A DNA stretch of 20,219 bases, taken from positions 1-20,219 of IMG/VR virus record IMGVR_UViG_3300009159_006031; one strand, 5' to 3'. Source of the stretch: a virus. Below the pieces are notes generated by a model. That model saw nothing but the letters and a program-made list of their open reading frames with translations, did no database searches and was not told the origin of the DNA. Shown here piece by piece: positions 128 to 19,560 of the stretch (the first letter of the stretch is position 1; the number at the start of each line of letters is the position of its first letter). The position numbers were made by a program, and so were the translations under genes.

Positions 128-664
128 TTACTCCTTCTTGTTTTCATCTAAATGTATAGACACCTCTTTATAGATTTTGTTCATTTTATTTTTCTTTATT
201 TTTTGGACGTATGTCCAATCATTTAACATAAAATCCTCTACTACTATTATAGGATAAGTTTTATTGATGTACAACTTTATTTTTTCCCTATATTCTTTTT
301 TATTTCCAATTTGACATATTGGTGATGTTCCCCAGTTTGGATCATAGATCCATAAGTTATTCTTATACTCAAAAACACAAACTGCATGACCAATTATATT
401 ATCTATGTCGTCTTTGTAGTAAAATGTAAAACCATAAACATTGTTCCATATATCATTGTTTGTTTCTAATAAGAGATTACATTGAGAAGCATAAATCATA
501 GCATCAACAAAACAAGAGTTTGGAAGGTTAGTTATGTTATTGTATTTTTTAAGTTCAAAACCAATTTTAAAACAAGCGACCCAAGATACGATTAATCCAA
601 CCCCAACAAGTAATGTTTTTGTTTTCCAGTTCCAGAGTTTACTTAATGTTTTTTTCACCTTCAA
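128..664 (-). CDS. Membrane-anchored cysteine-peptidase/transglutaminase-like protein
   Basis: This 178-residue protein has a basic N-terminus and one membrane segment at about residues 17-35, then a soluble domain. The soluble part holds Cys51 (NSCFVDA), His93 (GHAVCVFEY) and Asp108 (IYDPNWGT) in that order. That is the Cys-His-Asp order of papain-like and transglutaminase-like folds, where 'GHA' followed by a strand and 'DP.WG' is typical. It may cleave or cross-link peptide substrates at the membrane, but no family was identified with certainty. The first 26 nt overlap the 3' end of the upstream gene (639-1502), so the two are probably co-transcribed. Its last codons contain the ribosome-binding site for the exported protein downstream. 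The fold assignment rests on three motifs only. Confidence 0.6.
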   Translation of the reverse strand: MKVKKTLSKLWNWKTKTLLVGVGLIVSWVACFKIGFELKKYNNITNLPNSCFVDAMIYASQCNLLLETNNDIWNNVYGFTFYYKDDIDNIIGHAVCVFEYKNNLWIYDPNWGTSPICQIGNKKEYREKIKLYINKTYPIIVVEDFMLNDWTYVQKIKKNKMNKIYKEVSIHLDENKKE

Positions 665-1502
665 TTTGTTTAGCTTGCATTTCCTCTAAAGGATATTTAA
701 TATAATCTTTTACTGTTACAATATAATCTTCAATTAAAGCTATTTTATTCGTCACCCATCCTTCTGTTATTTCTAATGCTGCTTCTGGATTATTTTTTAA
801 CATTTCAATAATTTCAATCGCAGAATCTCTTATGACTTCAAATTGAGCAAGAGCCATATCAGCTGTATCTTCCGTATGATATTTCATTTCTTCTGGATCA
901 TCTGGGAGTTCTGCTACTTGAGCAAGTGTCGGATCTAATTTTAAAAATTCATTTTGATCAAATTCTGTTTCTCCATCCCATTCATAATTCTCATTTTCAT
1001 AATCAGAGCCTTGTGCTTTTTTAAGAGCTTCTTGGGTTGGTCGATCTTTCGACCCTGGTTTTGCTGGACGATAATTTTTACCCATTCTTTTTTTCTTTTG
1101 TTGGATGTTGTACCAAAGACCTTTATTCTTAGCTTGAACATCTATTTCCAAAGTGACTTCTTCTTCATTTTGAACTGAACCGCAGTTAGGCTTTCCGCAA
1201 CTCCCAGCGATTTTACTAACTGGTTTTGCGCTCCACATTTTGCAACTCCAATAATTGGCTTTGTACTTTGGACCAGGATTATCGCAACCGTGTCTTGCTC
1301 TGTAAGCTTTGCGTCTTTCGGGATTATCTCTTTTGATAGACATATTTGGATCGCCGAAAGTAACCTTAACAATATTACCTTTATCGTTTTTGACATAAAC
1401 ACCAAATTTCTTTTTGCTCCCAGAAGGAAGACGAAATGGTTTATTAAGTGGTGCTTTGCCTTTTTTAGCTGCTTGAATATCGTTGCTAAAATCAATTTCC
1501 AT
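639..1502 (-). CDS. Conserved phage protein, possibly head/structure-associated
   Basis: 287 residues. Residues 23-90 form a basic, conserved-looking block (FRLPSGSKKKFGVYV, then VTFGDPNMSIKRDNP, RARHGCD and YWSCKMW) that I recall as recurrent in proteins of tailed phages from environmental samples, often near or fused to head-morphogenesis proteins. Two further Cys (SCGKPNC, about 102-107) follow. The middle is charged and low-complexity. The C-terminus (about 225-280) is helical and contains GWVTNKIALIEDYIVTVKDY, a variant of the 'W..KI..A.DY' helix also common in such phage proteins. No catalytic motif is apparent. It overlaps the following gene by 26 nt. No clear promoter or Shine-Dalgarno precedes the ATG. 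A structural or assembly role is inference. Confidence 0.6.
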   Translation of the reverse strand: MEIDFSNDIQAAKKGKAPLNKPFRLPSGSKKKFGVYVKNDKGNIVKVTFGDPNMSIKRDNPERRKAYRARHGCDNPGPKYKANYWSCKMWSAKPVSKIAGSCGKPNCGSVQNEEEVTLEIDVQAKNKGLWYNIQQKKKRMGKNYRPAKPGSKDRPTQEALKKAQGSDYENENYEWDGETEFDQNEFLKLDPTLAQVAELPDDPEEMKYHTEDTADMALAQFEVIRDSAIEIIEMLKNNPEAALEITEGWVTNKIALIEDYIVTVKDYIKYPLEEMQAKQIEGEKNIK

Positions 1503-1523
1503 GATATATTGATTACACTAGTT

Positions 1524-2267
1524 TTATGGGCGTATAGCTTTTAAATTTATAATATCCTTATCGTAGTTCTCTATGATTTTACACTCTCCCCAACCTTTAC
1601 TCTTATTAGCTACAAATTTTCCATTCATAATATTTTCTTGACTAATTTTTCTATTTTTTTGTTGCATGCTAAACCAGTCCTCTCTTAAGTATCTATTTTT
1701 CGCATAAAGGTTATTAGCTATAACTTCAGATTCTAAAGGACGAAGGCCATAGGTCATGCCCAATGCCTTTGCTCTATTGATTAAGTCTGTATCCTGATGT
1801 GAATGTTCCAATAGATCTTCATCGTAACCGCCCAATTTATAAAAATTACTTTTTGTCAAAGCTATCCTGCCAAAAGACCCTCCTTGTGGTTCAAAATACA
1901 TATGAAGTAAACTATTTTTATTTTTATTAAAAGCTTTATCGATTTCTTCCCGCATTCCTAATAAAAAATTATCCACATCTAAATTTACTAAAATTTCTCC
2001 AGAGCCTAACCTATGAGCTATATTTTTAGATTTTGGACAATTATACTCTTTTACATCTAAGACTTTTATAAATTTTAATTTTTCTTCCTCTATATATTTT
2101 TTAAAAGTTTTTGTGCCTAAAACAAAAATCATAGTATCATCTGGACTATTATAGTCTACCAGAACAAGCTCTTCGTCTTCTTTAAGGTTATCTAAATTAG
2201 ATTTTAATGTAAACGCTAATTGCCATAATCTACCATAGCATACTGTACAATAGGAAACTTTTTTCAT
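1524..2267 (-). CDS. Glycosyltransferase, GT-A fold (GT2/GT7-C-like)
   Basis: 247 residues. The N-terminus (VSYCTVCYGR) begins a Rossmann-like nucleotide-sugar-binding half. The DxD metal/nucleotide motif is at Asp97-Val-Asp99 (VNLDVDNF). The acceptor half contains GRIALTKSNFYKLGGYDEDL (residues about 133-152) and HQDTDL, the 'GG-D/E' and acidic motifs of galactosyltransferase-type C-terminal domains. It should move a sugar from a nucleotide donor to an unknown acceptor, perhaps a virion protein, DNA base or host glycan. It is the first gene after a promoter whose -10 box lies 7 nt before the ATG, with no Shine-Dalgarno, so a leaderless mRNA is predicted. It is one of five glycosyltransferases scattered through the window. 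Confidence 0.8.
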   Translation of the reverse strand: MKKVSYCTVCYGRLWQLAFTLKSNLDNLKEDEELVLVDYNSPDDTMIFVLGTKTFKKYIEEEKLKFIKVLDVKEYNCPKSKNIAHRLGSGEILVNLDVDNFLLGMREEIDKAFNKNKNSLLHMYFEPQGGSFGRIALTKSNFYKLGGYDEDLLEHSHQDTDLINRAKALGMTYGLRPLESEVIANNLYAKNRYLREDWFSMQQKNRKISQENIMNGKFVANKSKGWGECKIIENYDKDIINLKAIRP

Positions 2268-2274
2268 TATTTAC

Positions 2275-2303
2275 ATTATAATTAAATTAAATTTATTTGA
2301 CAA
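2275..2303 (-). promoter_or_regulatory. Sigma70-type promoter for the 2267 glycosyltransferase, shared -35
   Basis: On the minus strand, TTGTCA (2303-2298), a 17-nt spacer and a perfect TATAAT (2280-2275) end 7 nt before the ATG at 2267. Its -35 box overlaps the -35 of the divergent plus-strand promoter because the sequence TTTGACAAA is close to palindromic. Confidence 0.75.
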
Positions 2304-2325
2304 ATGTAAATATGTATAATACTAT
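2297..2325 (+). promoter_or_regulatory. Promoter of the structured RNA / nrdAB leader
   Basis: A perfect TTGACA (2297-2302), a 17-nt spacer and TACTAT (2320-2325) fit a sigma70 promoter with a weak -10. Directly overlapping, 2325-2332 reads TATAAATA, the consensus of T4-type late promoters. Either would start transcription near 2332-2340, just before the first hairpin of the RNA. Confidence 0.6.
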
Positions 2326-2331
2326 ATAAAT

Positions 2332-2612
2332 ACATACCGCCCAATTAGCGGATAAGGTTTGTCGTACTCCGTTAAACGATAAGTCTCATTAGTTCGAAAC
2401 GTGGGCAACGCTTAGGAGCTTGCGACCCAGAAACCACTAGCAATAGTGGGAGTGTAGGTGTAAGGGCTAACACGCGATGGATGATCCTACCGACATCCGA
2501 TAAGTGTTAGGGACCGAAAGGTTTACAGACTCAATTGGGAAGTAGAACTAATAGGCTTTCACCAACCCTGCGCAAAGCACAGGGAAAGCTCCGCTTTGAA
2601 GAGCTCATTGGG
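2332..2612 (+). ncRNA. Structured RNA of unknown class upstream of nrdA
   Basis: No reading frame covers this stretch, yet by hand count G+C is 114/240 (about 48%) in 2341-2580, well above the flanks. Helices seen: CCGC 2337-2340 with GCGG 2348-2351; GTCG/CTCC (2361-2370) with GGAG/CGAC (2415-2426); CCACTA-GCAA-TAGTGG (2434-2449); CTAACAC 2467-2473 with GTGTTAG 2504-2510, enclosing GGATG/CATCC; ACC-GAAA-GGT (2513-2522); CCCTG/CAGGG (2566-2584); AGCTC/GAGCT (2587-2605). GTAGG (2454-2458) can pair with CCTAC (2486-2490) in a loop, making a pseudoknot. GNRA loops (GCAA, GAAA) occur only in the plus-strand reading. It may be a freestanding RNA or an nrdAB leader. I could not match it to RNase P, tmRNA, group I intron, cobalamin or purine riboswitch signatures. 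The stretch 2613-2742 is AT-rich and shows no clear terminator or Shine-Dalgarno. Confidence 0.65.
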
Positions 2613-2742
2613 AAGTTGTTATAAAAATACAGATTAGTACACTCTTTATTGAGTTAAATAATAAATGTTAATAAAACTAAATTTTTTTCTTTTTAAATTT
2701 TAAAAAACACTGTAATATAGAGTTCCCCCTATTTTATATAAA

Positions 2743-4989
2743 ATGAATGTTAAGAAAAGAAATAATACTACTGAAAAATTTGATATAGAAAAAATTAACA
2801 AAGTTATTAATTGGGCTATAGATGGATATTCTGGAGTTAGTTTAACAGACATAGAGATAAATGCTAAAATTAATATAACCGATGGAGTTCATACAAAAGA
2901 AATTCATAGCTTATTGATTGAAAGTGCGGCAAATTTAATTTCTATAGAAAAACCAAACTATCAATATGTTGCAGCTAGGCTTCTTAATTATCAATTAAGA
3001 AAAGACGTTTGGAAGGGCAAACATGCGCCAAGACTTTCTGAATTTATAAATAATGGTTTAAAAAATAAGATATATGACCCTGCTATCCTAGAAAAATACA
3101 CAGAAGATGAAATAAATAAACTGGGCGAAATTATAGATCACGAAAGAGACTTTATCTTTACCTATGCTGGTATAAAACAATTATGTGATAAATATTTAAT
3201 AAAAAATAGAACTACCCAACAAATTTACGAAACACCACAGTTTGCTTATATATTAATCTCTGCTTATGCATTTATAAATTATCCAAGCGAAACTAGATTG
3301 ACTTATGTAAGGAAATTTTACGATGCTATTAGTAAGCATAAAATAAATTTGCCAACTCCAATTATGGCAGGAGTAAGAACTTCTAGTAAAAATTACGCGA
3401 GTTGTTGCTTGATTGGGGTAGACGATACGAAAGAAAGCATTACTGCTAGTGCTACGGCAGTTAGTATGGCTACGGCAAATAGATGTGGAATTGGAATTGA
3501 TGTTAGCAGGATTAGAGCAATTGGCGCCCCAATTAAAAATGGGGAAGTCGTCCATACGGGGTTAATTCCATTCTTAAAAATTTATGAGAGTAGCGTGAAA
3601 GCTTGGCAACAAAATGGTTTAAGAGGAGGAAGTGCAACCTGCAATATACAATGGTGGCATTACGAAATTGAAGATGTTGTAGTATTGAAAAATAATGCTG
3701 GAACAGACGACAATCGAGTTCGTAAACTTGATTATACGGTTGGTATGAGCAAATTATTTTATGATAGGGTTTTAAAAGATGAAGATATCATGCTATTTAA
3801 TACTGCCGAAGTGCCAGAGCTTTATGAAGCTTGGGGGACAAAAGACTTTGATAAGATTTATAAAGAATGCGAGTCTAAGAAACTAAAAATTAAAAAGAAA
3901 ATTTCTGCTCGTAAATTATTCTCTCTTATAATAAAAGAAAGAGTTGAAACTGGAAGAATTTATATTCTAAATGTAGATCATGCTAACAATCATGGAGCTT
4001 GGTCTGATAAAGTAACCATGAGCAATCTTTGCACAGAAGTTATTCACCCCACAATTCCACTTAATGACTACCATGATAAAGATGCAGAAATTGGTATGTG
4101 TATTCTTTCGGCAGTTAATATGTTAGAAGTAAAAAACTGGCAAGATTTAGAAAAAGTTTGTGATTTAATTGTAAGATTCCTTGAAGAAATTATAGACATT
4201 CAAGACTACTTCAATTTCGCAGCAGAAAATTTTGCTAAAAAGCGTAGAAGCCTTGGAGTTGGAATCACCAATCTTGCAGCTTTTCTTGCTAAAAATGAAT
4301 TAAAATATAATTCAGATAAGTCTCTTTCGGTAATAGATGAGTGGATGGAGCATTTTCAATACTATCTTTTAAAGAGTAGTTGCCAATTGTCTAAAGAAAA
4401 AGGCAGATGCGAAAAATTTGAAAATACAAAATACTCTAAAGGTATCTTGCCAATAGATACATACAAAGATAAAGTAGACGAATTAGTAAAAAGAAAACTA
4501 TCACTTGATTGGGAGAAACTAAGAAAAGATATCAAAGAATTTGGATTAAGACATTCGACATTATCCTCCTGTATGCCTTGTGAGAGTAGCTCTGTAATTC
4601 AATCTTCTACAAACGGTGTCGAGCCTATTCGTAGTCTTATTACTTATAAAACAAGCAAAATGGGTAAACTTCCAGTTATGGTTCCAGGAATTGGAAAATA
4701 TGATCATAATTATGAATTAGCTTTTGATTTTAAAGATAATTTAGGTTTATTAAAAATAAACGCAGTAATTCAAAAATATATTGATATGGCTATTTCTACT
4801 AATGTGTATTATAATTACAGTCACTATGAAAATCATATATTACCAGACAGCAAAGTTATGAAAGAAATAATGTATGCTTATAGCCTTGGACTAATTAGTT
4901 TGTATTATAATAATACAGACGATGGAGATAAAGAGCAGTCTATGACACAAAAAGAAGATGACTGTGCTAGTGGAGCTTGTAAATTATGA
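2743..4989 (+). CDS. nrdA: Class Ia ribonucleoside-diphosphate reductase, large subunit
   Basis: NrdA reduces ribonucleoside diphosphates to deoxy forms with the NrdB radical subunit. The 748 residues match T4-type NrdA throughout. An ATP-cone-like N-terminus (about 1-92) precedes the barrel. Redox cysteines are Cys221 (NYASC) and Cys453 (GMCILSAVN). The active site holds Asn428, Cys430 and Glu432 (MSNLCTE). PCESSSVIQSSTNG is the usual substrate-loop region. Tyr721-Tyr722 (LYYNN) are the radical-transfer pair, and the shuttle cysteines Cys741 and Cys746 sit in the tail CASGACKL. It appears complete, with no intron or intein. The ATG has no Shine-Dalgarno. It overlaps nrdB by 4 nt (ATGA). The structured RNA lies directly upstream. 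Confidence 0.97.
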   Translation: MNVKKRNNTTEKFDIEKINKVINWAIDGYSGVSLTDIEINAKINITDGVHTKEIHSLLIESAANLISIEKPNYQYVAARLLNYQLRKDVWKGKHAPRLSEFINNGLKNKIYDPAILEKYTEDEINKLGEIIDHERDFIFTYAGIKQLCDKYLIKNRTTQQIYETPQFAYILISAYAFINYPSETRLTYVRKFYDAISKHKINLPTPIMAGVRTSSKNYASCCLIGVDDTKESITASATAVSMATANRCGIGIDVSRIRAIGAPIKNGEVVHTGLIPFLKIYESSVKAWQQNGLRGGSATCNIQWWHYEIEDVVVLKNNAGTDDNRVRKLDYTVGMSKLFYDRVLKDEDIMLFNTAEVPELYEAWGTKDFDKIYKECESKKLKIKKKISARKLFSLIIKERVETGRIYILNVDHANNHGAWSDKVTMSNLCTEVIHPTIPLNDYHDKDAEIGMCILSAVNMLEVKNWQDLEKVCDLIVRFLEEIIDIQDYFNFAAENFAKKRRSLGVGITNLAAFLAKNELKYNSDKSLSVIDEWMEHFQYYLLKSSCQLSKEKGRCEKFENTKYSKGILPIDTYKDKVDELVKRKLSLDWEKLRKDIKEFGLRHSTLSSCMPCESSSVIQSSTNGVEPIRSLITYKTSKMGKLPVMVPGIGKYDHNYELAFDFKDNLGLLKINAVIQKYIDMAISTNVYYNYSHYENHILPDSKVMKEIMYAYSLGLISLYYNNTDDGDKEQSMTQKEDDCASGACKL

Positions 4990-6050
4990 AAACAGTATTA
5001 AATTTTAAAAACGTAGACTTTACTAAACAACCATTGTTTCTTGGCGAGGATTTAAATTTGCAAAGATATGATAGGTTTAAATATCCAATATTTTTTGAGC
5101 TATTCAAAAAACAAAATGAAAACTTCTGGTGGCCACATGAAATAGCTTTAGGAAAAGATAGAAGCGATTATAAAAATTTGACTGACACCGAAAGATTTGT
5201 ATTTGATAGTAATTTAAGATTCCAAACTCTTGGAGATAGTATGTTATCTAGAAGCATACACTCATTAAAAGATTACGTTAGTAATCCAGAGCTAGAAATA
5301 TGCATGAATACTTGGGCTCAATTTGAAGGCATTCATAGTTATTCTTATTCTTATCTTTTAAATAATGTTCATCCAGATCCTACTAAATTTTTTGATAGTA
5401 TCATGGAGGATAAAGAAATAACAGGTCGCGCTCAATTAATTAGAGATAATTTTGATAAAATTCTTGGTAGCGACGAAAAGAAAGACCCTAAACAAAAGAT
5501 TTTTGATGCTATTCTTTCTATTAATGTAATGGAAGGACTCGTGTTTTATGTTTCTTTTGCTTGTTCTTTTTATTTTGGATATCGGGGAAAGATGGAAGGT
5601 AATTCTAAAATTATAAAATTCATTCAAAGAGATGAAGCTTTGCATTTTGCTACCTCTCAAAATCTATTGAAGATACTTCGTGACGAAGATAAAGAAGGCT
5701 TTACATCTATTGTAAAGAAAAATGAAGATAAGATATACGCTTTCTATGAACAGGCCGCGAAGAACGAAAGTGAATGGTCTCAGTATCTCTTTAGTAAAGG
5801 CAGTTTACTTGGATTAAATGCTGACGTTCTAGATGGCTACTCTAAGTGGCTTTGTGATAGCCGATTAAGAAGCTTAGGCTATAAGAAGATATTTAATCAA
5901 AAAGATAATCCTATAGCTGGATGGCATGACAGCTATTTGGACAGTAGCAAAGTGCAAGTTGCGCCACAAGAAACTGAGATATCAAGCTATAAAGTGGGCG
6001 CAAGGAAGACGGACATAGAAGACGAAGATTTTGGTGATTTAAAACTCTAA
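4986..6050 (+). CDS. nrdB: Class Ia ribonucleotide reductase, small (radical) subunit
   Basis: NrdB carries the diiron centre and tyrosyl radical for NrdA. In the 354 residues the metal ligands are visible as Asp84 (TLGDSM), Glu114 and His117 (FEGIHS), Glu183 (NVMEG), and Glu217 and His220 (RDEALH). The radical tyrosine is Tyr121 (IHSYSY), the place of Tyr122 in E. coli, so this is a canonical class Ia subunit, not a metal-only or Tyr-less variant. The C-terminal tail EDEDFGDLKL should dock on NrdA. Translation is coupled to nrdA by the ATGA overlap. Confidence 0.97.
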   Translation: MKTVLNFKNVDFTKQPLFLGEDLNLQRYDRFKYPIFFELFKKQNENFWWPHEIALGKDRSDYKNLTDTERFVFDSNLRFQTLGDSMLSRSIHSLKDYVSNPELEICMNTWAQFEGIHSYSYSYLLNNVHPDPTKFFDSIMEDKEITGRAQLIRDNFDKILGSDEKKDPKQKIFDAILSINVMEGLVFYVSFACSFYFGYRGKMEGNSKIIKFIQRDEALHFATSQNLLKILRDEDKEGFTSIVKKNEDKIYAFYEQAAKNESEWSQYLFSKGSLLGLNADVLDGYSKWLCDSRLRSLGYKKIFNQKDNPIAGWHDSYLDSSKVQVAPQETEISSYKVGARKTDIEDEDFGDLKL

Positions 6051-6079
6051 TATCTATATATTAATGTGTAATTATCTAT

Positions 6080-6412
6080 GTGAATTTAGATATTACTATT
6101 ATATTTAACTTAGTCTTAGGGGCACTTTCTTTCTTAGGGGGATGGCTATTCACTAGAGTATTTTCTCTTTTTGACAAACAAGAGACTTTAATGAAAGATA
6201 TAAATGATAAAACATTTAGCGATTTTATAACATTAAGAAAAGAAATGGAATTAGAAGGCAGAAAACATCAACAAGAGATAGCAGATCTAGCTTTAAAAAT
6301 TTCAACTACTTATGTAACGAAAGAATCATTTGAAACTTATTTTGATAGAATAGAAGCTAAATTAGATCGTAATTTTGATATAATACAAAATCATTTTAAT
6401 AGAAAAAATTAG
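6080..6412 (+). CDS. Small membrane protein with coiled coil
   Basis: 110 residues: one transmembrane helix at about 8-30 (IIFNLVLGALSFLGGWLF), then a long charged helix (about 33-75) and a second charged segment, likely a coiled coil. The layout resembles small phage inner-membrane proteins such as holin- or spanin-like accessories, but there is no diagnostic motif. The start is GTG at 6080; the ATG two bases earlier is immediately closed by a stop in its frame. TGTAAT lies 7 nt upstream, a weak version of the leaderless-promoter layout seen elsewhere here. It lies 29 nt after nrdB. Its stop codon overlaps that of the convergent gene (TTAG at 6409-6412). Confidence 0.65.
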   Translation: MNLDITIIFNLVLGALSFLGGWLFTRVFSLFDKQETLMKDINDKTFSDFITLRKEMELEGRKHQQEIADLALKISTTYVTKESFETYFDRIEAKLDRNFDIIQNHFNRKN

Positions 6413-6759
6413 TCTTGTCTAGATGAAGGGTGCTTTTTGCCTTTTCTTTTCTTGCTCCAATTATCAAAATATTTCTGTTTTAATGGGTCTTTACCAAGGA
6501 GCTTTTCTCTTTTTGCTGATAACTCAGCACTTCTATCCCAAAGATCACCTACGGTGCCTTTTTTTCTGCCAGTGAAATCACTAAACTCTTTTGCTGTACA
6601 ATCAGCTTTCAAAGTCCCTTCTGTATTCAACTGAGGCGAAGTAAAAATCCTGTTCCATTTAACTCCAGAATCGTCTTGATATTCATGTTTTTCATGAATA
6701 CTTTGAATTAAAGATATGATTTTATTACTTTTGGGATGTTGATATAAATATTCAGGCAT
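6409..6759 (-). CDS. FmdB-like phage protein lacking zinc-ribbon cysteines
   Basis: 116 residues starting MPEYLYQHP, the 'P.Y.Y' opening of FmdB-type small regulatory proteins. The remainder (WNRIFTSPQL, KKGTVGDLWDRSAELSAKR, DPLKQKYFDNWSKKRKGKKH) fits a recurrent phage version of that family in which a basic tail follows. Only one cysteine is present, so the zinc ribbon of cellular FmdB proteins is not formed. The role is unknown; the lysine-rich C-terminus suggests nucleic-acid or capsid contact. The ATG overlaps the end of the upstream glycosyltransferase by 8 nt, so it is probably translated from the same mRNA. Confidence 0.6.
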   Translation of the reverse strand: MPEYLYQHPKSNKIISLIQSIHEKHEYQDDSGVKWNRIFTSPQLNTEGTLKADCTAKEFSDFTGRKKGTVGDLWDRSAELSAKREKLLGKDPLKQKYFDNWSKKRKGKKHPSSRQD

Positions 6760-7834
6760 AATGTTTTAATATATTATCAACTAGTCTTGTAGCAGAAAAC
6801 TCTTCTTGCAATTTTAAACCATTTTTATTTATTTTATTTGATTTTATTTTTTTAATAGCTTTTTCGCATCCATCTATAAAATCATCATCATTGAATGTAT
6901 AAATATTACCTTGATTAAACCTTTGCCCTTTGTGAAAAAACATGTTGTCATATGCTTCAATTTTACCAGATGGTTCTACTAACACAGAGTTATCTTTATT
7001 AGCCCAAGATTTATAAGAATGAGCATTTAAGATTACAGCCTGTTTTCCTAGAGCTACAGAATGAAATTCTGGTAATCCCCAGCCCTCTCCACCGCTCATG
7101 CCAATTATTACATCTGCACTATTTAAATAGTCATTATATAAAGCATTATTTTCCATAAAATTTAAAAATGATATATTAAAGTACTCTTTACCTTCTAAAA
7201 TAGAATTTAATAATTGTTGTTGATCTTGAGGTTTTAAGAATGGATTATAGATTGCACATTGTAGAAAATAGTCTCTATTATTACCGTATTTCTTAAGCCA
7301 ACTCTGTATAACCTTTTTATGATTTTTTCTTTTTTCTAATTTACCTGCTAAATTAAAAGTTATACGATCCTCCATATATGTTTTATTAGTATTAAAAAAG
7401 TTATATTTATCAAAAGCTAATGGTACATATTCTATATTGTTGCAACCAGCATTTTTAAAAACTTCACAAGTGTACTCAGAAGAGAACAAGACTTTGTGGT
7501 TATTTTTTACAATATTTATTTCGGCTTGCGTAGGTTGATCAAGTTCATAAAAAGAAAATAATAATTGCTCTTTAGCGAAAGACTCTAGGGAGCCGTTGAT
7601 ATGCCATAATTTAAAAATCCTATCATTCCTAGAATATCTGGAGTCATTATCTTTTAATGATATATTAACCCAATCAAGAAATTTCTTTTCGACATTTTGA
7701 GTAGAAAAATCTATCTGACTTCCAATTGGAAATAGAATTACATCTGTTTCCCTTTTGAAGAGTTCTTTTAAAATTAACGCAGAAGTTTGCCCAAAAGATA
7801 CGGAGTTAATTGGCAAATTCAAGCATAAACTCAC
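6752..7834 (-). CDS. Glycosyltransferase, GT-B fold (family 4-like)
   Basis: 360 residues. The N-terminal half begins LNLPINSVSFGQTS. The C-terminal donor-binding half opens with FNLAGKLEKRKNHKKVI (about 160-176) and contains GMSGGEGWGLPEFHSVALGK (residues 245-264), the acidic-glycine-rich nucleotide-sugar motif of family 4 (Glyco_transf_1) enzymes. The probable start is GTG at 7834, inside a GTGA overlap with the upstream gene, so translation is coupled. An in-frame ATG is not available nearby. Donor and acceptor are unknown. Confidence 0.85.
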   Translation of the reverse strand: MSLCLNLPINSVSFGQTSALILKELFKRETDVILFPIGSQIDFSTQNVEKKFLDWVNISLKDNDSRYSRNDRIFKLWHINGSLESFAKEQLLFSFYELDQPTQAEINIVKNNHKVLFSSEYTCEVFKNAGCNNIEYVPLAFDKYNFFNTNKTYMEDRITFNLAGKLEKRKNHKKVIQSWLKKYGNNRDYFLQCAIYNPFLKPQDQQQLLNSILEGKEYFNISFLNFMENNALYNDYLNSADVIIGMSGGEGWGLPEFHSVALGKQAVILNAHSYKSWANKDNSVLVEPSGKIEAYDNMFFHKGQRFNQGNIYTFNDDDFIDGCEKAIKKIKSNKINKNGLKLQEEFSATRLVDNILKHYA

Positions 7835-8157
7835 AGCAGATCTTCTTCCTCTTCAATTACTTTCTCTACAACCTTTTCGACAACTTTCTTTTGGGCCTTG
7901 ACAGGGACTTCAGAAGCGGTAGGCGCTTCAACTTGTGTTTTTTTAGATCCATCAATTTTTGACGAGAGATATACTCTGTAATCTGGAGCTTTAGGATTCT
8001 CTTTTTTAAATTTATTAGCAAAAATAACGATCTCTACTTGTTCCCCAAGTTCATCTTTAAAATAACCAGAAAGATATTTCTGAGTTTTCCCTTCTCTTTT
8101 CCACAATGCACCGATGTCTCTTTTTTGCCAATCATTTTGTTGTTTATTGTTTTCCAT
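7831..8157 (-). CDS. DUF736-like phage protein with acidic tail
   Basis: 108 residues. Positions about 14-66 (IGALWKREGKTQKYLSGYF, then VIFANKFKKENPKAPDYRVY) match the DUF736 pattern, a small OB-like domain found in phages and mobile elements. Residues 67-95 are a flexible Pro/Lys/Val-rich stretch, and the protein ends VIEEEEDLL, an acidic tip reminiscent of single-stranded-DNA-binding proteins. A role in DNA metabolism is plausible but inferred. It has its own perfect promoter and a Shine-Dalgarno (AGGAGA 4 nt before the ATG), the strongest expression signals in the window, suggesting an abundant product. GTGA overlap with the next gene. Confidence 0.7.
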   Translation of the reverse strand: MENNKQQNDWQKRDIGALWKREGKTQKYLSGYFKDELGEQVEIVIFANKFKKENPKAPDYRVYLSSKIDGSKKTQVEAPTASEVPVKAQKKVVEKVVEKVIEEEEDLL

Positions 8158-8205
8158 ATTGTCTCCTATTGTTTATATTATATCCGAGTTAGTGTTACTT
8201 GTCAA
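8158..8205 (-). promoter_or_regulatory. Perfect sigma70 promoter plus Shine-Dalgarno leader
   Basis: On the minus strand, TTGACA (8205-8200), exactly 17 nt, then TATAAT (8182-8177). The predicted start near 8170 gives a 13-nt leader containing AGGAGA before the ATG at 8157. The promoter sits inside the last codons of the upstream sigma-factor gene. It is the one strong promoter here that has a proper ribosome-binding leader. Confidence 0.88.
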
Positions 8206-8802
8206 TTTATTCTTTAAGAAATCTTTGCCCTTATTATGAATATTAATGACAGTTTGAGTGCTTAATTTCATTTTCTCGCCAATATCTGCCCAAGACATCA
8301 ATCTCTTACTGTTGAAATATCTTAATTTATATATTTTTTTAATTCTTTTATCTTTGCATCTATTTAGGATAGAGAATATCATATCAGCTTTTTCTTTAAA
8401 AGCTATAGTTTCATTATTAGCTTTGATTTGATTTTTTTCTATAATATGTTTGATTGCGGTGTCTTCCATAGTTATGTGACGATTGTTTTTATTGATTGTA
8501 TTTAGACAATGATATCTCATTTGATTACCTAACCAAGTAGAAAATTTAACATTTTTATCAGGGTTAAAGTTCATTACTGATTTATATATGATATAAGTTT
8601 TCTCTGCGATTACATCTTCTGGGTCAATCCCAGACTGCACCATATTATAATAATATTTTTTAATCATTTTATGGCATATGCCGCTATGTCTTAATTCGAG
8701 TTCTTTAAGAGCATGGCTATTGTTTCGATTCAATACATCTTGAATCAAGGCGTTATCATTTGTTGTTTTTATATTCATATTAAAGTTGTGAAATTCTTTC
8801 AT
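8173..8802 (-). CDS. Phage sigma-70-family factor (late-sigma-like)
   Basis: 209 residues from the upstream ATG. Residues about 20-110 look like sigma region 2: a helix with LKELELRHSGICHKMIKKYY, then DPEDVIAEKTYIIYKSVMNF and FSTWLGNQMRYHCLNTINK, the '-10 recognition/core-binding' layout. Residues about 155-200 are a region 4 helix-turn-helix (YFNSKRLMSWADIGEKMKLS, then TQTVINIHNKGKDFL). Size and architecture resemble T4 gp55 and related factors that direct late transcription. An alternative start at 8778 (MNIKTTND) begins one base after the kinase stop; neither start has a Shine-Dalgarno. The gene overlaps the upstream kinase by 23 nt if 8802 is used. Confidence 0.8.
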   Translation of the reverse strand: MKEFHNFNMNIKTTNDNALIQDVLNRNNSHALKELELRHSGICHKMIKKYYYNMVQSGIDPEDVIAEKTYIIYKSVMNFNPDKNVKFSTWLGNQMRYHCLNTINKNNRHITMEDTAIKHIIEKNQIKANNETIAFKEKADMIFSILNRCKDKRIKKIYKLRYFNSKRLMSWADIGEKMKLSTQTVINIHNKGKDFLKNKLTSNTNSDII

Positions 8803-9871: not shown

Positions 9872-10978
9872 ATGCAACAAAACTTCAAAGAAGCTCTAGG
9901 CTACGACGATATTTCTCTTTTGCCTAATTTTTCAGATATCTCTTCTAGAAAAGAAGTTGATACGTCCACAAAAATTTCTAGAAATAATCAGATTAAAATA
10001 CCAATTATTTTATCTCCTATGGATACCGTTTCTTCAGTCAAGTCATGCATTAAAATGAATAAAATTGGTGCGGCTGGCGTTTTGCATAGATTTATGCCAA
10101 TCGAAGAGCAAAAAGTTAAATCAAAGATGATTAAAGACGAAAGTGGTTTATCCATAAATGCAATTGGATTAAAAGACGCAGAAGAAAGAATTAATCTCAC
10201 TAAGAAATATACAGACATTTACTTTCTTGACACAGCGAATGGATTATCAAAAAACGCAGAAGACTTTCTCAGATGGTACAAGACTAGTAATTTTACTCAA
10301 GATATTATAATTGGAAATACTCTAACTAAAGAAAGCGTTTATAGACTAGCAAATTTAAAAGCAGACGGATTTAGACACCTTATCGGGCCAGGCTCGATGT
10401 GCTTAACGCAAGTAAAAACTGGCATTGGTTGCCCAAGCGTAACTGGTAATTTTTACGCTTGGCAATCAGTAAAAAATTGGGAACTTTCTCAAGTCGATTT
10501 ATTTAAGCAAGACAAACCAAATCCAGACCATAGGCCAAGTATATTAGCAGATGGTGGAATTCGTTATCCAAAAGATTTAGTTAAAGCTATAGCGAGTGGG
10601 TGTGACGCAATAATATGCGGTAAAATCTTTGCTGGATTGCAAGACACGGTCGATGACGAAGACATAGTGGAAAAGAATGGCAAAAAATATGCAAAATATA
10701 GAGGCATGGCTTCTAAAGATGTCGTAGAAGATTATCAATTATACGACGGGACGAAAAAGAATCTCTTCGTAGAAGGAGACAACACTTTAATTCCATTATC
10801 AGACAATACCATAGAAGATGTTGTTTACGATTTCGCAAATGGACTAAGAAGCGCCATGAGTTATCTAGGTTTTAGAAAAATGGAAGATATGCGTGGTGGA
10901 CTTTGGACGAATAAAATCATCGCAGTTAGATCAACAATAAATAATATGTACGAGGGATTTTCTCATGGAAAAATGTGA
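9872..10978 (+). CDS. IMP dehydrogenase/GMP reductase family enzyme, CBS-less, GMP-reductase-like
   Basis: 368 residues forming a single TIM barrel. EALGYDDISLLPNF opens the family signature, PMDTV is at 49-53, and the catalytic loop GPGSMCLTQ (172-180) holds Cys177. ADGG (226-229) and ICGKIFAG (248-255) bind phosphate. There are no CBS domains, and the length fits GMP reductase (about 345). KTGIGCPS after the catalytic loop and NGKKYAKYRGMAS (269-281) resemble GMP reductases, and the IMPDH flap Arg-Tyr pair is not evident in YQLYDGTKKN (288-297). GMP reductase converts GMP to IMP plus ammonia using NADPH; IMPDH runs IMP to XMP. I favour the former, but sequence alone leaves this open. The adenylosuccinate synthetase downstream would use the IMP. 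Confidence 0.8.
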   Translation: MQQNFKEALGYDDISLLPNFSDISSRKEVDTSTKISRNNQIKIPIILSPMDTVSSVKSCIKMNKIGAAGVLHRFMPIEEQKVKSKMIKDESGLSINAIGLKDAEERINLTKKYTDIYFLDTANGLSKNAEDFLRWYKTSNFTQDIIIGNTLTKESVYRLANLKADGFRHLIGPGSMCLTQVKTGIGCPSVTGNFYAWQSVKNWELSQVDLFKQDKPNPDHRPSILADGGIRYPKDLVKAIASGCDAIICGKIFAGLQDTVDDEDIVEKNGKKYAKYRGMASKDVVEDYQLYDGTKKNLFVEGDNTLIPLSDNTIEDVVYDFANGLRSAMSYLGFRKMEDMRGGLWTNKIIAVRSTINNMYEGFSHGKM

Positions 10979-11306
10979 TATTAAATACGTAAAATACATA
11001 TGCTTGATTCTCATAGCTTTTTGGACTATGAATAAATCTCAGGCACAAGTAGCTTATCAAAAAATGGACCAATCCACAAGATCAGTAGAACTTTATATAG
11101 TTAAGGCTCAGGTTCAATCAAATGCCGAGCAAATTAAATACTTGAACGAACAAAAGAAGTCATACTCCTTGTTTAATAAAAATGAGTCGATAGCAAGGTC
11201 TAGACAACAAGCAATTATTTCCGCCAAAGAAAATGAAACTTTTAGATTAAATCATAAGATTTTTCTTATAAATAAAGCACAGCAAACGCCGTTGACAATA
11301 AGATAA
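10965..11306 (+). CDS. Small exported protein of unknown function
   Basis: 113 residues. The N-terminus has a basic start, a hydrophobic core (YICLILIAFWTM) and SQA-Q at about 25-28, a convincing signal peptide. The mature part is about 85 residues, polar and predicted helical (KAQVQSNAEQIKYLNEQKKS), without cysteine after cleavage. It overlaps the previous gene by 14 nt and has GAGGG 8 nt before the ATG, one of the few Shine-Dalgarno sites here, as expected for an internal operon gene. It might act in the periplasm or in lysis; no family is recognised. The -35 of the next promoter lies in its last codons. Confidence 0.65.
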   Translation: MEKCDIKYVKYICLILIAFWTMNKSQAQVAYQKMDQSTRSVELYIVKAQVQSNAEQIKYLNEQKKSYSLFNKNESIARSRQQAIISAKENETFRLNHKIFLINKAQQTPLTIR

Positions 11307-12545: not shown

Positions 12546-12761
12546 GTGAGTAACCAAAGCGAAGCCTTGGCAATATGCTCTGAATTTTCAGACGAATACG
12601 GGGTTGATTCAAAAGATTCAAACACTATTATAGTCTATACTAAAGGCGAATATACAAACGAATTAACAAATCTTCTTGATAGAAAAAATTATAAATTAAA
12701 GAAATTTCAAACATACGGGGACGAAGTCATAATATACTTTGTCCCAAAAAATAAAAATTAA
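12546..12761 (+). CDS. Small protein of unknown function
   Basis: 71 residues with a GTG start; the overlapping ATG at 12544 is closed at once by a stop. The sequence alternates helix and strand (EALAICSEFSDEYGV, NTIIVYTKGEY, KKFQTYGDEVIIYFVPK), consistent with a compact alpha/beta domain. No motif is recognised. TAAACT ends 5 nt before the GTG, a weak leaderless-type -10. The stop codon overlaps that of the convergent thioredoxin gene (TTAA at 12758-12761). Confidence 0.55.
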   Translation: MSNQSEALAICSEFSDEYGVDSKDSNTIIVYTKGEYTNELTNLLDRKNYKLKKFQTYGDEVIIYFVPKNKN

Positions 12762-13030
12762 TTTAAAATTTGATTTAATCTAGCCTGACTCACCATCCCA
12801 TTGAATCTGTCCACTAAAGCTCCGTCTTTTAATACTACAAAAGCTGGCACGGAGTTTATTTGATAAGCTTGAGCCATATGGCGATCAGAATCTACGTCGA
12901 TCTTCATTAGATTCACTTTATCTGAATTACGGGTAATAAAACTATCAATTAGAGGCTTCATCATTTTGCATGGCCCACACCAAGAAGCACTAAAATACAT
13001 TAAATCAATTTTTTTTTGTGCGCGCGGCAT
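12758..13030 (-). CDS. Thioredoxin
   Basis: 90 residues, a short single-domain thioredoxin. The active site is WCGPC with Cys18 and Cys21. INSVPAFVVLKDG (58-70) supplies the cis-Pro (Pro62), and MKIDVDSD is the usual central strand. It may reduce the phage ribonucleotide reductase, which keeps its C-terminal shuttle cysteines, or other disulfides. It is last in a minus-strand set, beginning 2 nt after the DUF1360-like gene's stop, with only a weak AAAGAG ahead of the ATG. Confidence 0.93.
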   Translation of the reverse strand: MPRAQKKIDLMYFSASWCGPCKMMKPLIDSFITRNSDKVNLMKIDVDSDRHMAQAYQINSVPAFVVLKDGALVDRFNGMVSQARLNQILN

Positions 13031-15171: not shown

Positions 15172-16374
15172 ATGAGATTTCATGTATTAGGTTTGCCTCA
15201 TACAGTTTCAAGTAAACTATTCAACGCTTGCGCTTATACTCAAAAAGTAGTTAAGTTTTGCAAGATGATGAAAGCCAGAGGCCACTATATAATTCATTAT
15301 GGCCACGAAGATTCAGAGGTGATTTGTGACGAGCATGTTACAGTTTTGACAAATAAAGATTTTGAAATATCTTATGGTTCGCACGATTGGAAAAATAATT
15401 TTTTTAAATTTGATACAAATGATCACGCTTATCAAACTTTTTATAAAAATGCGATTCTTGAAATTCACAAAAGAAAACAAAAATTAGATTTTCTTTTACC
15501 ATTTTGGGGGAGTGGAGTTAGAACGATTTGCGATGCTCATGAAGATATGATAGTTGTCGAACCAGGAATTGGTTATGCTGGAGGTCATTGGGCTAAATTT
15601 AAAATTTTTGAATCTTATGCTATTTATCATGCATATTACGGCTTAGAAGCGATAGGAACCTGCAAACAAGGCTGGTATGATGTAGTTATACCAAACTATT
15701 TTGATTTAGACGATTTTGAATACTCAGAAGAAAAAGAAGATTATTTTTTATATCTAGGACGGGTTTACAGCGGTAAAGGAGTTCATATAGCTCATCAAGT
15801 TTGTGAGCACTTAAAGCAGAAACTTATAATCGCAGGTCAAGGCAATTTAAAAGAGATGAACATAAACTCTGAATACGTAGAACATATTGGCTATGCAGAC
15901 ATAGAAACTAGAAGAAAATTAATGTCAAAAGCTAAAGGCACTTTTGTTGCCTCGCAATATATAGAACCATTTGGTGGAGTTCAAGTAGAGAGTCTTTTAA
16001 GCGGGACTCCTACAATAACAACAGATTGGGGGTCTTTTGCAGAGAATAATATTCATGGGTTGACTGGATATAGGTGCAAAAGTTTTGAAGATTTTATATA
16101 CGCTGCGCAAAATATAAATAAAATTAAGCCAATAAATTGTAGAAAATTTGGTGAAAATTTTTCTTTAGAAAAAGTGGCTACGATGTATGAAAAATATTTT
16201 GAAGACGTTTTAAACATTTATACTGGCAAAGGATGGTACGAAGTCAAATCAAATAAATTAGATGTCTTAAAAAAGTATATTCCAAATGATAATCCATTCT
16301 TTTATAATGTAACGAAAGATGATATCTTAAAAAGTAAAGTGGACTCTTTGAAAGAATTTTTAAAACAATATTGA
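15172..16374 (+). CDS. Glycosyltransferase, GT-B fold (family 4)
   Basis: 400 residues. The N-terminal acceptor half begins [11 protein letters not shown] and contains [11 protein letters not shown] (130-140). The donor half starts [17 protein letters not shown] (191-207), followed by LIIAGQG (218-224) and the family-4 EX7E motif [10 protein letters not shown] (Glu265 to Glu273), which binds the nucleotide sugar. The final 60 residues (WYEVKSN onward) are an extension that may carry acceptor specificity. It should transfer a hexose-type sugar; donor and acceptor are unknown. It overlaps the next glycosyltransferase by one base (TGATG), so the two probably act on one glycan. Confidence 0.9.
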
Positions 16375-17000
16375 TGGAACATATAAATATAATATTAATT
16401 AATTTAAAAGAAAGAAAGGATCGGCTAACAAGGTGTTTAGATCTTTTTAATAATTATTTCGATAATAATTTTTCTATACATATAATTGAGGCATTTTTAA
16501 ATAAAAAAAATGGACATAAAGGTTGCGCTTTCAGTCATTTTTTAGCGATGGAATATGCAACTCAAAAAGGTTTTGATAAAGTTATTATCATAGAAGACGA
16601 TGTGTTTTTTCCTTATTCTTTAATAGAATTGAAATTACTTTTGTTGAAATTAAAAGAAATAGAATGGGATCTTATTGCTATGGGAAGCAATTTTGATATA
16701 AACTCAAAGATAAATGATTTTTTTTTAAAGCCTTCAAGAATATGGCAATCTACAATGCAAATTGTAAATAAACCATATTATAAAAAATATACAAATTTTT
16801 TATTTTGGAGCTATATAAAACAAAAAGATACATATGAAGGAGTTAATGATCATTCAGATTCATGGATTCTTGATCAAGCATGGAATAGATATTTAGTCGA
16901 AACAGATAAAATATATTGTCCGCACAATAGATTCGCATATCAAATAGCAAATATGTCGAATACGACAAACGTGATGATGGATGGAATAAGAGATTTTTAA
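16374..17000 (+). CDS. Glycosyltransferase family 25-like
   Basis: 208 residues from the ATG at 16374, chosen over the TTG at 16371 because it forms a TGATG overlap with the preceding gene. The opening INLKERKDRL (9-18), GHKGCAFSHFLAMEYA (47-62) and IIIEDDVFF (71-79) with Glu74-Asp75-Asp76 are the family 25 signature (lipooligosaccharide or collagen galactosyltransferase type). DSWILDQAWNRY gives the later acidic motif. It transfers a sugar, often galactose, to an acceptor. It ends one base before the stop of the convergent SET-domain gene. Confidence 0.9.
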   Translation: MEHINIILINLKERKDRLTRCLDLFNNYFDNNFSIHIIEAFLNKKNGHKGCAFSHFLAMEYATQKGFDKVIIIEDDVFFPYSLIELKLLLLKLKEIEWDLIAMGSNFDINSKINDFFLKPSRIWQSTMQIVNKPYYKKYTNFLFWSYIKQKDTYEGVNDHSDSWILDQAWNRYLVETDKIYCPHNRFAYQIANMSNTTNVMMDGIRDF

Positions 17001-17001
17001 A

Positions 17002-17532
17002 TTATTTTGTTGGTGTTAAAGGTATCTTTGACCAATCTATATCTTCTATTGATTTAGGCGTACTTGATTTATTTTGATAGCGGTTCATATCATAACCGTC
17101 TCCGTAGTAAGTAAATATTTCATTTCCTCTTTTTATATCTTTTACAGCGACCAAGAACCAAGCTCTATGCTTTGGAGATACGAACCAATCTGCATCACGA
17201 TCTTTTTTGCTATTGTAAATAGAGCCATACCCCAAAGAGATATAATAATTGAATCCATGAGTTTTACATTCATTGCATTGACATTGACGATTATGAGTGA
17301 ACGCATATTGACTTATCACAGGGTCACGATGATAGTTTGATCGCCAACCTAATTGAAAAATTGGACTACATTCTATTAATTCATTTTTTGAAAAATTTCT
17401 TTTTGCAAAAACTCCTAAATTTGCTGTATTATCTATATTTTTAGACTGAAGGACTTGAAGATCTTTTAAAGAGGAATATATAAGATTTTTTTCAAAATTT
17501 TCTATATATTTTTTTTGTAGTTCTGGAATCAT
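17002..17532 (-). CDS. SET-domain protein (lysine methyltransferase-like)
   Basis: 176 residues. NLGVFAKRNFSKNELIE (39-54) is the SET N-terminal strand that binds S-adenosylmethionine. SLGYGSIYNSKKDRDADW (99-116) stands where cellular proteins have 'G.GS.YNHS..PN', and VKDIKRGNEIFTYYGDGYD (130-148) is the C-terminal motif with the catalytic-type tyrosine. The His-Ser of 'NHS' is replaced by Ser-Lys, so activity or cofactor binding may differ. A Cys cluster (CQCNEC, 84-89) is inserted in the middle and might bind zinc. The substrate could be a host or virion protein. No clear promoter was found. Confidence 0.8.
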   Translation of the reverse strand: MIPELQKKYIENFEKNLIYSSLKDLQVLQSKNIDNTANLGVFAKRNFSKNELIECSPIFQLGWRSNYHRDPVISQYAFTHNRQCQCNECKTHGFNYYISLGYGSIYNSKKDRDADWFVSPKHRAWFLVAVKDIKRGNEIFTYYGDGYDMNRYQNKSSTPKSIEDIDWSKIPLTPTK

Positions 17533-17625
17533 ATTACGAATACTCTATATAATATATTTGTAATTTATTTATTTCTAAATTATTGTATAATTTTGATTTA
17601 AAATTAAGTGTAACCTAGTTAAATC

Positions 17626-19560
17626 ATGGACAACTCTAAAAATAAAGACATAGTTGAGTTAATATCTCAAATATTAGAGTATACAGAAGATCACAGGCAG
17701 TCTGACCATCAACAAGGAGCATCTAATGAGCCTAGGCCACCCGAATGTAGATGTAAAAGTGAAAACGGATTTTGCGGAGATGATCCACCAGTAGATTGTC
17801 CAGAAGCACTTTTTCCCACAGAAGAACTTTGTTTGTGTGCAGAAGATCCATTAATGAAATGTCCAAAATGTCCTCCTACGCCAACTTGTGGATGCAAAGA
17901 TACTGGGGATGGTCCTTGTGGAGACGACACTAGCACATGCCCAGCGAATGAATTTGGAGCGTATGACATAGCGGGTTGTGGTGGTTTTTGTGATCCGCCA
18001 GTTTGTCCTAAATGTTGGCCTCCAAGCGACACACCAACATCATCATCTACACCTTGTTATTGTTTTGATTGCGGATATAGTGCTTTTAATAGTGGTGATT
18101 GTACAAAGGTAACGTGTCAATCAGGAGATTGCAGTCCACCTAAAGATGACTGTTATGATTGCCCAACGAACTCTCCAACTCCAAGCTGCGATAATGCTGG
18201 TGATCCTTGCGTTTGTGATTCAGGCACAGATTGTGGTAATTGTGCTGCTCCAGATTATAAATGCGTAAATCAACATTCAGAAACATGTTCTAACGGATGT
18301 GTTATATTTTGTGGATCGTGTGAGAAAGTTCCTACCGTAACTCCTACACCTCCAACGCCCACAGACACGAGGCTTTGTCCTTGCGATTGTGCAATGTATC
18401 CTTCGATGAGCGCATGTAATGATGCTAAACGTAAATACTGCAGTCTTAACTGTGAATGTTCACCTAATCCATGCTCTGGGGACGATTGCAAAACAAATAG
18501 TGAATGTACAGATTTAATAATTGACCCTACTCCTACTCCTTGTGAGACTCCTACGCCGACATGTCCCGAAGGATGCGAAGATGTTGGCTGTCGCGATCCT
18601 GGCGATTGTAATTCAGGCAACTGTTCGCCTAATGGGAACGACGTGGCTGCATGTTGCCGAACTGGACCTTGTGGAATTAATCGGTGTCCACTTTTCACCT
18701 GCGATATATGTGTGCACCAGCGTAAAACATGCAGAGATAAGGGAGGATTTAGCAGCAAATCCGCTTGCGACAAAAGCGTTGCTGGAAGTACACTTGATAT
18801 GTGCGAAGATTGCGGTGTAACAGGTGAGTGCGGTATCTTTGAGCCCTGTTGGTGCATAGTTCCAATACCCACAGGCTCACCTTCGTTGACTCCTTGCAAT
18901 TGCGAGAATTCAGGTTATACTTCTCCTGGACATTGCGGCCAAGCTGGAACTTGTGAGGGCGTAGACTTGGTTTGTAAAGATGGTAGTACGATACCTTGCG
19001 ATATATGTTGTACTCCTACTCCATCAAGTACGTGCGTATGCCAAAGCGGTTGCTATGAATATGGTCCAGATTGTCAATCAGCCAAAGAAGATATTGAAAA
19101 TAATAATAAATATGCACAGTGTAGTTGCTCACCCAAGGCCTGCTCTTCGGATTCCAACAAAGAATGTACCTGCCTTACATGCACATACATTACTCCTACT
19201 CCAGAAACTCAAAGTCCCAGTTGTGCGCCTCGTCCAGGCGATTGTTGTTATTATGGAATTTGTAATGGGAAAAACGTAGGATGCCAAAAATGTAGGGAGT
19301 GGGGAGAACATAGAAAAGTCCCAGGTGATGATCCTAGGTGTCCAGGTTTTGATTGTTATAAGAAAGAAATAACAGGTAGCGCCGCATTTAGAAGGGATAT
19401 AGGACACGCAGTATGGAATCCCAATACAGGCAAAATGGACTGTAATCTAGACGGCGTAGACTGCACGACCGCGCAGGCGCCTGTATGCAATACGTACCGA
19501 AAGGCCCTCTATGGACTTCAAAATGAACCTGGACCAAATGATGGAGTATCAAATTGCTAG
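17626..19560 (+). CDS. Giant cysteine-rich protein with Pro/Thr linkers, unknown family
   Basis: 644 residues with about 93 cysteines (hand count, near 14%). Residues 1-40 have none and look helical (DIVELISQILEYTEDH). The rest consists of short Cys-rich modules joined by linkers rich in Thr-Pro-Thr-Pro (TVTPTPPTPTDT, DPTPTPCETPTP). Two modules resemble each other (about 18373-18511 and 19029-19172: C.C..C..Y....C..AK...C.CSP..CS.D). The C-terminal part (GSAAFRRDIGHAVWNPNTGK onward) is less Cys-rich. There is no signal peptide, so it is made in the cytoplasm and could bind metal there or form disulfides after release. Ser/Thr linkers flanked by glycosyltransferase genes suggest, but do not show, a glycosylated virion or spike protein. 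Regional G+C is raised, which the amino-acid composition may explain. TTGATT-N17-TAGTTA ends 4 nt before the ATG, a weak promoter. Confidence 0.8.
   Translation: MDNSKNKDIVELISQILEYTEDHRQSDHQQGASNEPRPPECRCKSENGFCGDDPPVDCPEALFPTEELCLCAEDPLMKCPKCPPTPTCGCKDTGDGPCGDDTSTCPANEFGAYDIAGCGGFCDPPVCPKCWPPSDTPTSSSTPCYCFDCGYSAFNSGDCTKVTCQSGDCSPPKDDCYDCPTNSPTPSCDNAGDPCVCDSGTDCGNCAAPDYKCVNQHSETCSNGCVIFCGSCEKVPTVTPTPPTPTDTRLCPCDCAMYPSMSACNDAKRKYCSLNCECSPNPCSGDDCKTNSECTDLIIDPTPTPCETPTPTCPEGCEDVGCRDPGDCNSGNCSPNGNDVAACCRTGPCGINRCPLFTCDICVHQRKTCRDKGGFSSKSACDKSVAGSTLDMCEDCGVTGECGIFEPCWCIVPIPTGSPSLTPCNCENSGYTSPGHCGQAGTCEGVDLVCKDGSTIPCDICCTPTPSSTCVCQSGCYEYGPDCQSAKEDIENNNKYAQCSCSPKACSSDSNKECTCLTCTYITPTPETQSPSCAPRPGDCCYYGICNGKNVGCQKCREWGEHRKVPGDDPRCPGFDCYKKEITGSAAFRRDIGHAVWNPNTGKMDCNLDGVDCTTAQAPVCNTYRKALYGLQNEPGPNDGVSNC

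Follow-up and report, generated by a model that had tools for sequence, protein, structure and literature searches.

Phage proteins that contact the host are mostly cysteine-poor, beta-structured fibres. Conotoxins and the Kazal and EGF-type modules, on the other hand, are disulfide-scaffold proteins with variable loops. In the L-shaped fibre of phage T5, pb1, residues 1-40 anchor the protein under the collar (PMC12750041). The family described here, which was reached from a gene in a 20,219-nt stretch of viral DNA (the window, i.e., the whole stretch analysed), resembles phage tail fibres and receptor-binding proteins such as T5 pb1 in its proposed short N-terminal anchor and long modular exterior. 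It also resembles tail fibres in its fast evolution, and the cyanophage homologue of a glycosyltransferase neighbour in the window lies among tail-fibre genes. Unlike tail fibres, the family has 14% Cys, with putative disulfide modules in place of beta-structured trimers, and no detectable fibre, lectin, beta-helix, chaperone or depolymerase domain. With conotoxins, Kazal and EGF-type modules it shares a fixed Cys framework, variable inter-Cys residues and tandem small modules, while it differs from them in being phage-encoded and in having neither a signal peptide nor a convincing Pfam or fold match.

The gene is an open reading frame at positions 17626-19560 (+ strand), from ATG to stop with no internal stop codon. 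The sequence-only reading had described 644 residues with about 93 cysteines and Thr-Pro linkers, and this is confirmed, as the 644-aa product contains exactly 93 Cys (14.4%), together with 70 Pro and 53 Thr; at the background Cys rate of the window (1.8%), the probability of at least 93 Cys is 7e-53. At least seven TP-type linkers are present (starting at aa 83, 183, 235, 300, 307, 463 and 523), and looser Thr-Pro linkers lie near aa 137 and 415. Its GC3 (0.28) is like that of the neighbouring genes (0.15-0.32), which marks it as a normal coding frame of the phage; total GC is higher (0.44) because Cys, Pro, Gly and Thr raise codon positions 1 and 2. As judged by reading the sequence, the protein starts with an amphipathic helix and has no signal peptide, and the same reading of six members bore out the earlier statement on this point. 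The gene had also been placed between a SET-domain gene and glycosyltransferases; the SET-domain gene does adjoin it, whereas both glycosyltransferase genes lie past the SET gene as seen from the Cys-rich ORF, which they do not flank. The opposite neighbour, which is truncated where the contig ends (19657-20217), has no Pfam match, and no recognisable virion protein gene stands beside the Cys-rich ORF in the window. The thioredoxin said to be encoded elsewhere in the window is found there as a WCGPCK ORF. We give the thioredoxin and SET neighbours little weight for function, in the case of SET because it is absent beside both Cys-rich copies in a 106-kb contig (G002). Coordinates are collected in Table 1.

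Table 1. Features of the Cys-rich gene and of other genes in the window (aa, residues of the 644-aa protein).
Feature	Positions	Strand	Remarks
GTGTAA motif, 18 nt before ATG, structural-gene-type upstream motif	17608-17613	+	before 6/6 family members
N-terminal amphipathic helix, aa 4-21, proposed anchor/oligomerisation tag	17635-17688	+	AF2 model, hydrophobic moment
Module A1, aa 41-82, 8 Cys	17746-17871	+	resembles A2 (CGDD...CPKC)
Module A2, aa 88-130, 8 Cys	17887-18015	+	
Module B, aa 144-179, 8 Cys, begins CxCxxCGY	18055-18162	+	
Module C, aa 188-232, 10 Cys	18187-18321	+	
Longest Thr-Pro linker VPTVTPTPPTPTDT, aa 235-248	18328-18369	+	
Module D, aa 251-294, 10 Cys	18376-18507	+	best match to G002 paralogue repeat unit
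Module E, aa 313-410, 18 Cys	18562-18855	+	
Module F, aa 424-462, 8 Cys	18895-19011	+	
Module G, aa 470-519, 10 Cys	19033-19182	+	
Module H/C-terminal region, aa 533-644, 12 Cys	19222-19557	+	
SET-domain protein, divergent neighbour, adjoins the Cys-rich ORF	17002-17532	-	Pfam SET E 6.5e-7
Group 1 glycosyltransferase (GT1)	15172-16374	+	Pfam/PHROGs
Glycosyltransferase family 25-like protein (GT25)	16371-17000	+	Pfam/PHROGs
WCGPCK thioredoxin-like ORF	12758-13030		
Phage-encoded sigma factor	8173-8802	-	Pfam Sigma70_r2 1e-8; PHROG RNA polymerase sigma factor 5e-14

The protein had no match in Pfam, PHROGs, PDB sequences, phage records or plasmids, and its relatives were reached via the SET and glycosyltransferase neighbour genes in IMG/VR contigs. 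These relatives are a protein of 669 aa with 86 Cys (L002/G001, E 1e-77), one of 545 aa with 78 Cys (L010/G003), one of 544 aa with 77 Cys (L071/G031) and, in G002, two tandem paralogues of 933 and 952 aa with 127 and 144 Cys. The family therefore comprises six proteins over five contigs (the window and four other IMG/VR contigs), and it is synteny, the N-terminal helix and full-length alignment that carry the claim of a family. Modules A1 and A2, which are similar to each other, are present in the window and L002 and absent from L010 and L071; modules have thus been gained or lost.

Beyond these five contigs, no homologues of the protein or its relatives were found in the phages, plasmids, viral contigs and GTDB genomes searched, nor was the family found in 34 other contigs (often partial) carrying a related glycosyltransferase. 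A search with the N-terminal ILEYTE pattern returned only the family, one GIY-YIG-like ORF and one 37-aa ORF. No tail-fibre family was matched by sequence or profile in PHROGs, Pfam, PDB sequences or phage records, and the literature on Cys-rich phage fibres yielded no comparable phage protein. Frequent database homologues with known function, which would have spoken against the protein being unusual, were searched for and did not appear. In the libraries searched, no described family includes these proteins, and given its spread over five contigs and its absence from annotated libraries, ordinary annotation leaves an unnamed hypothetical protein. The NrdA of the window matches phage reductases and suggested HTVC008M as a relative, in which there is no such Cys-rich protein. 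The phage group is not T4-like, because G002 encodes a tape measure of 2,191 aa along with a DNA polymerase of the phrog_405 type.

The link to the virion comes from signals that the family has in common with structural genes of the phage group. A short N-terminal helix is present in all six members, and in the window protein its hydrophobic moment is significant (P 0.003). In G002, the motif [IL]Nx[IVL]L[DN][IVL]LQN occurs at residues 7-10 of four proteins and nowhere else in the 242 ORFs, with none expected in shuffles; its carriers are both Cys-rich paralogues, a 1,775-aa structural-region protein and a 291-aa protein. The window helix (LISQILEYTED) occupies the same place as this ILQN type and is likewise amphipathic, although in sequence the two are only loosely alike.

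Besides the shared N-terminal motif, the 1,775-aa protein (G002 95090-100417, L096/L097) has patches of Cys and TPTPTST linkers of great length, and its only domain match is a single weak one to a PHROG whose function is unknown. It resembles the Cys-rich paralogues of the same phage in the motif, and it and a 921-aa G002 protein resemble the family in Cys patches and Thr-Pro linkers, as does a 1,292-aa protein in Cys patches. These large proteins differ from the family in having only 1.5-3.9% Cys and a repeat-unit profile match not above decoys. In the same contig the tape measure and the probable major capsid protein contain 0 Cys, and the large fibre-like proteins 27-36. Apparently related Cys-containing proteins with differing N-terminal parts (the shared motif or TKPP/TPTP linkers) are encoded at G002 18978-21109 and G031 18300-21570; they adjoin a paralogue of a gene that borders the one for the probable capsid protein, and this is possibly an interchangeable appendage locus.

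The second shared signal is the hexamer GTGTAA, which precedes all six family genes. It stands roughly 12-30 nt before the starts of 32 of 242 ORFs, about 15-fold more than hexamers of the same composition (2.1 on average). In G002, it lies before 12 of 39 structural-region genes, the tape measure among them, as compared with 0 of 21 replication/GT genes (P 0.005), and outside the structural region it also precedes a tail fibre gene. GTGTAA was seen before structural and other genes in the window, G001, G002, G003 and G031. GTGTAA may serve this phage group as a late promoter or as a signal for translation, and the phage-encoded sigma factor is possibly its reader. T4-type late promoters (TATAAATA) were not found near the gene start, and a literature search on GTGTAA gave nothing relevant.

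Evidence on selection comes from the pair G003 and G031, whose flanks are mostly 97-100% identical, while the Cys-rich ORF falls to 86-97% and recovers at its ends. The ORF differs by 96 nonsynonymous and 21 synonymous changes (45, 36 and 36 at codon positions 1, 2 and 3). For non-Cys codons there are 94 nonsynonymous changes over 1,089 sites and 14 synonymous over 303 sites, i.e., dN/dS = 1.93 (one-sided Fisher P 0.011, one phage pair), whereas the all-codon value for the same pair (dN/dS = 1.17, P 0.30) is not significantly above 1. The diversifying selection expected of a host-contact protein was therefore found in one pair only, at non-Cys codons. The divergent NrdB, PurA and HNH alleles of the same two phages, with more synonymous change, have dN/dS of 0.03-0.18. 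Among neighbouring genes of the pair, dS ranges from 0.004 to 0.62, and we read this unevenness as recent single-gene allele replacement. Between the window and L002, the Cys-rich protein is 44% identical, and its neighbours 61-89%. Because the replacement rate is high, a diversity-generating element was considered, and it was rejected as the changes occur all along the gene, are of mixed type and are not limited to a short repeat.

Taken with the cysteine pattern described below, these observations make it fairly probable, in our opinion, that the protein is a disulfide-braced appendage exposed on the virion, probably a fibre of the tail or head in contact with the host or with host glycans. 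Among the options of the sequence-only reading, the disulfide-armoured virion fibre is thus the best supported, by the N-terminal motif, GTGTAA, paired Cys and diversifying selection, although the searches matched no fibre family. The short N-terminal helix would anchor or oligomerise the protein on the particle, and about nine small Cys-rich modules would follow it, connected by stiff Thr-Pro linkers that the neighbouring glycosyltransferases may modify. Synthesis, with no signal peptide, would fall in the late phase of infection, and the Cys would form disulfides, probably as the protein leaves the reducing cytoplasm or afterwards. With the fold kept by these bonds, the inter-Cys residues would diversify under host selection. 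It counts against the appendage that the cytoplasm in which the protein is made is reducing, that the ORF has no recognisable virion gene beside it, and that the window helix is only loosely like the ILQN type.

In a different explanation, a soluble disulfide-rich protein is released at lysis, or acts as a decoy, off the particle, and targets host surfaces, competitors or grazers. Disulfides require an oxidising site outside the cell, and quick change around fixed Cys is also typical of secreted effectors. Such a protein would not be expected to share its N-terminal motif with a structural-region protein or to carry the structural-type GTGTAA, and none of the six members has a signal peptide, which speaks in particular against the decoy that had been proposed earlier; we retain the decoy within this explanation, which we consider unlikely as a whole. 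Even less probable is a capsid or tail armour or cementing protein, purely structural and without host contact, whose Cys would brace the particle against the environment. Disulfide bracing and growth by repeats are compatible with such a role, as is the motif shared with a large structural-region protein, but the non-Cys dN/dS above 1, unlike that of the other divergent genes of the pair, and the low identity between the window and L002 in comparison with the neighbours argue against it.

The cysteine pattern bears on whether the modules hold disulfides or metal. When cut at the TP linkers, the modules of the window protein contain 8, 8, 8, 10, 11, 18, 8, 10 and 12 Cys, and over four sequences, 30 of 32 module counts are even (49% for random cuts, P about 0.001), this P being only approximate as the cuts were set by eye at linkers and CxC starts. 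The two exceptions are an extra Cys within a linker of the window protein (C306) and one Cys lost in L071. Orthologous modules with unequal counts mostly differ by two. In the alignment of G002 repeat units, the sixth Cys is missing from the unit that has lost the third, and the tenth from two units that have lost one vicinal Cys, while two others lack the tenth only; this joint loss suggests specific pairs, the third Cys with the sixth and the seventh with the tenth. Cys is kept above other residues, at 77 of 78 positions between G003 and G031 and at 77 of 93 between the window and L002. Thus the properties of disulfide-rich modules, conserved Cys in even numbers per module, are present, while those of metallothioneins or Zn-Cys4 sites, multiples of four and enrichment in CxxC/CxC, are absent, the modules having 8, 10 and 18 Cys and CxxC and CxC being near the shuffled expectation.

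From these counts, disulfides are favoured over four-Cys zinc sites or other metal sites. A protein of the infected cell that binds zinc or another metal, with Cys as Cys4 or cluster ligands, had been among the first suggestions. Several modules do end in CxxC (CPKC, CDIC, CGSC) and a reducing cytoplasm would maintain free thiols; nevertheless, four-ligand sites do not agree with modules that hold 10 or 18 Cys or with orthologues that differ by two, there are only 2-7 His, and no Pfam metal-binding family scored above threshold, which leaves this suggestion with a small chance. The eukaryotic look noted at first is not accompanied by any sign of eukaryotic origin, and contamination is ruled out by the phage neighbours, the phage-like GC3 and the relatives in independent phage contigs.

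Structure prediction was informative at the level of the repeat unit. Full-length AlphaFold models (four sequences) had a pLDDT of 32.5 and were unusable except for helix 4-21, while the G002 repeat unit, from 15 aligned units, was modelled with fair confidence (pLDDT 81.5, pTM 0.61). Prediction by module, which had been recommended, hence gave a model of the unit but no known fold, since Foldseek returned no PDB or BFVD match for it (best E 9.1 and 4.9). Comparison with Kazal, EGF and scorpion-toxin-like folds gave only weak one-unit Pfam hits (best E 0.007; Foldseek best E 4.9), and from the model the fold of the family may be new. A held-out G002-unit profile scored module D at 25.4 bits without bias correction (with it, the window protein is missed), as against 23.5 and 26.4 for the best decoys (300 of each kind); as this is within the decoy range, the profile no more than suggests that single units of the window protein and of G002 are homologous.

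A further-reaching claim is that the family represents a new class of phage adhesins, in which arrays of a small new disulfide fold are set on a helix anchor, with frozen Cys, diversifying selection between them, no signal peptide and oxidation on exit from the cell. We hold this claim tentatively, at somewhat less than even confidence. If true, disulfide-scaffolded and quickly changing modules would be an unrelated, added solution to host contact, resting on a scaffold tolerant of much sequence change, and the question would arise how a virus that is put together in a reducing cytoplasm comes to have disulfides.

The surroundings of the gene include further glycosyltransferases. In addition to the two in Table 1, weaker Pfam/PHROGs matches are at 6752-7834 and 1524-2267, giving four glycosyltransferase-like genes within the 20-kb window, and G001 has a sugar-metabolism-like cluster at 167-8493; together they point to a phage with large glycan-building capacity. 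The GT1 has its closest named-phage homologue in Synechococcus phages (71%), and in one of these, S-CAM7, the homologue sits among baseplate, tail and tail-fibre genes. By sequence reading, the window also encodes NrdB, the thioredoxin-like protein and purine-synthesis enzymes resembling GuaB and PurA. Also conserved in all five contigs is a small protein, encoded at 10965-11306 of the window, whose start (CLILIAFWTMNKSQAQ) resembles a signal peptide.
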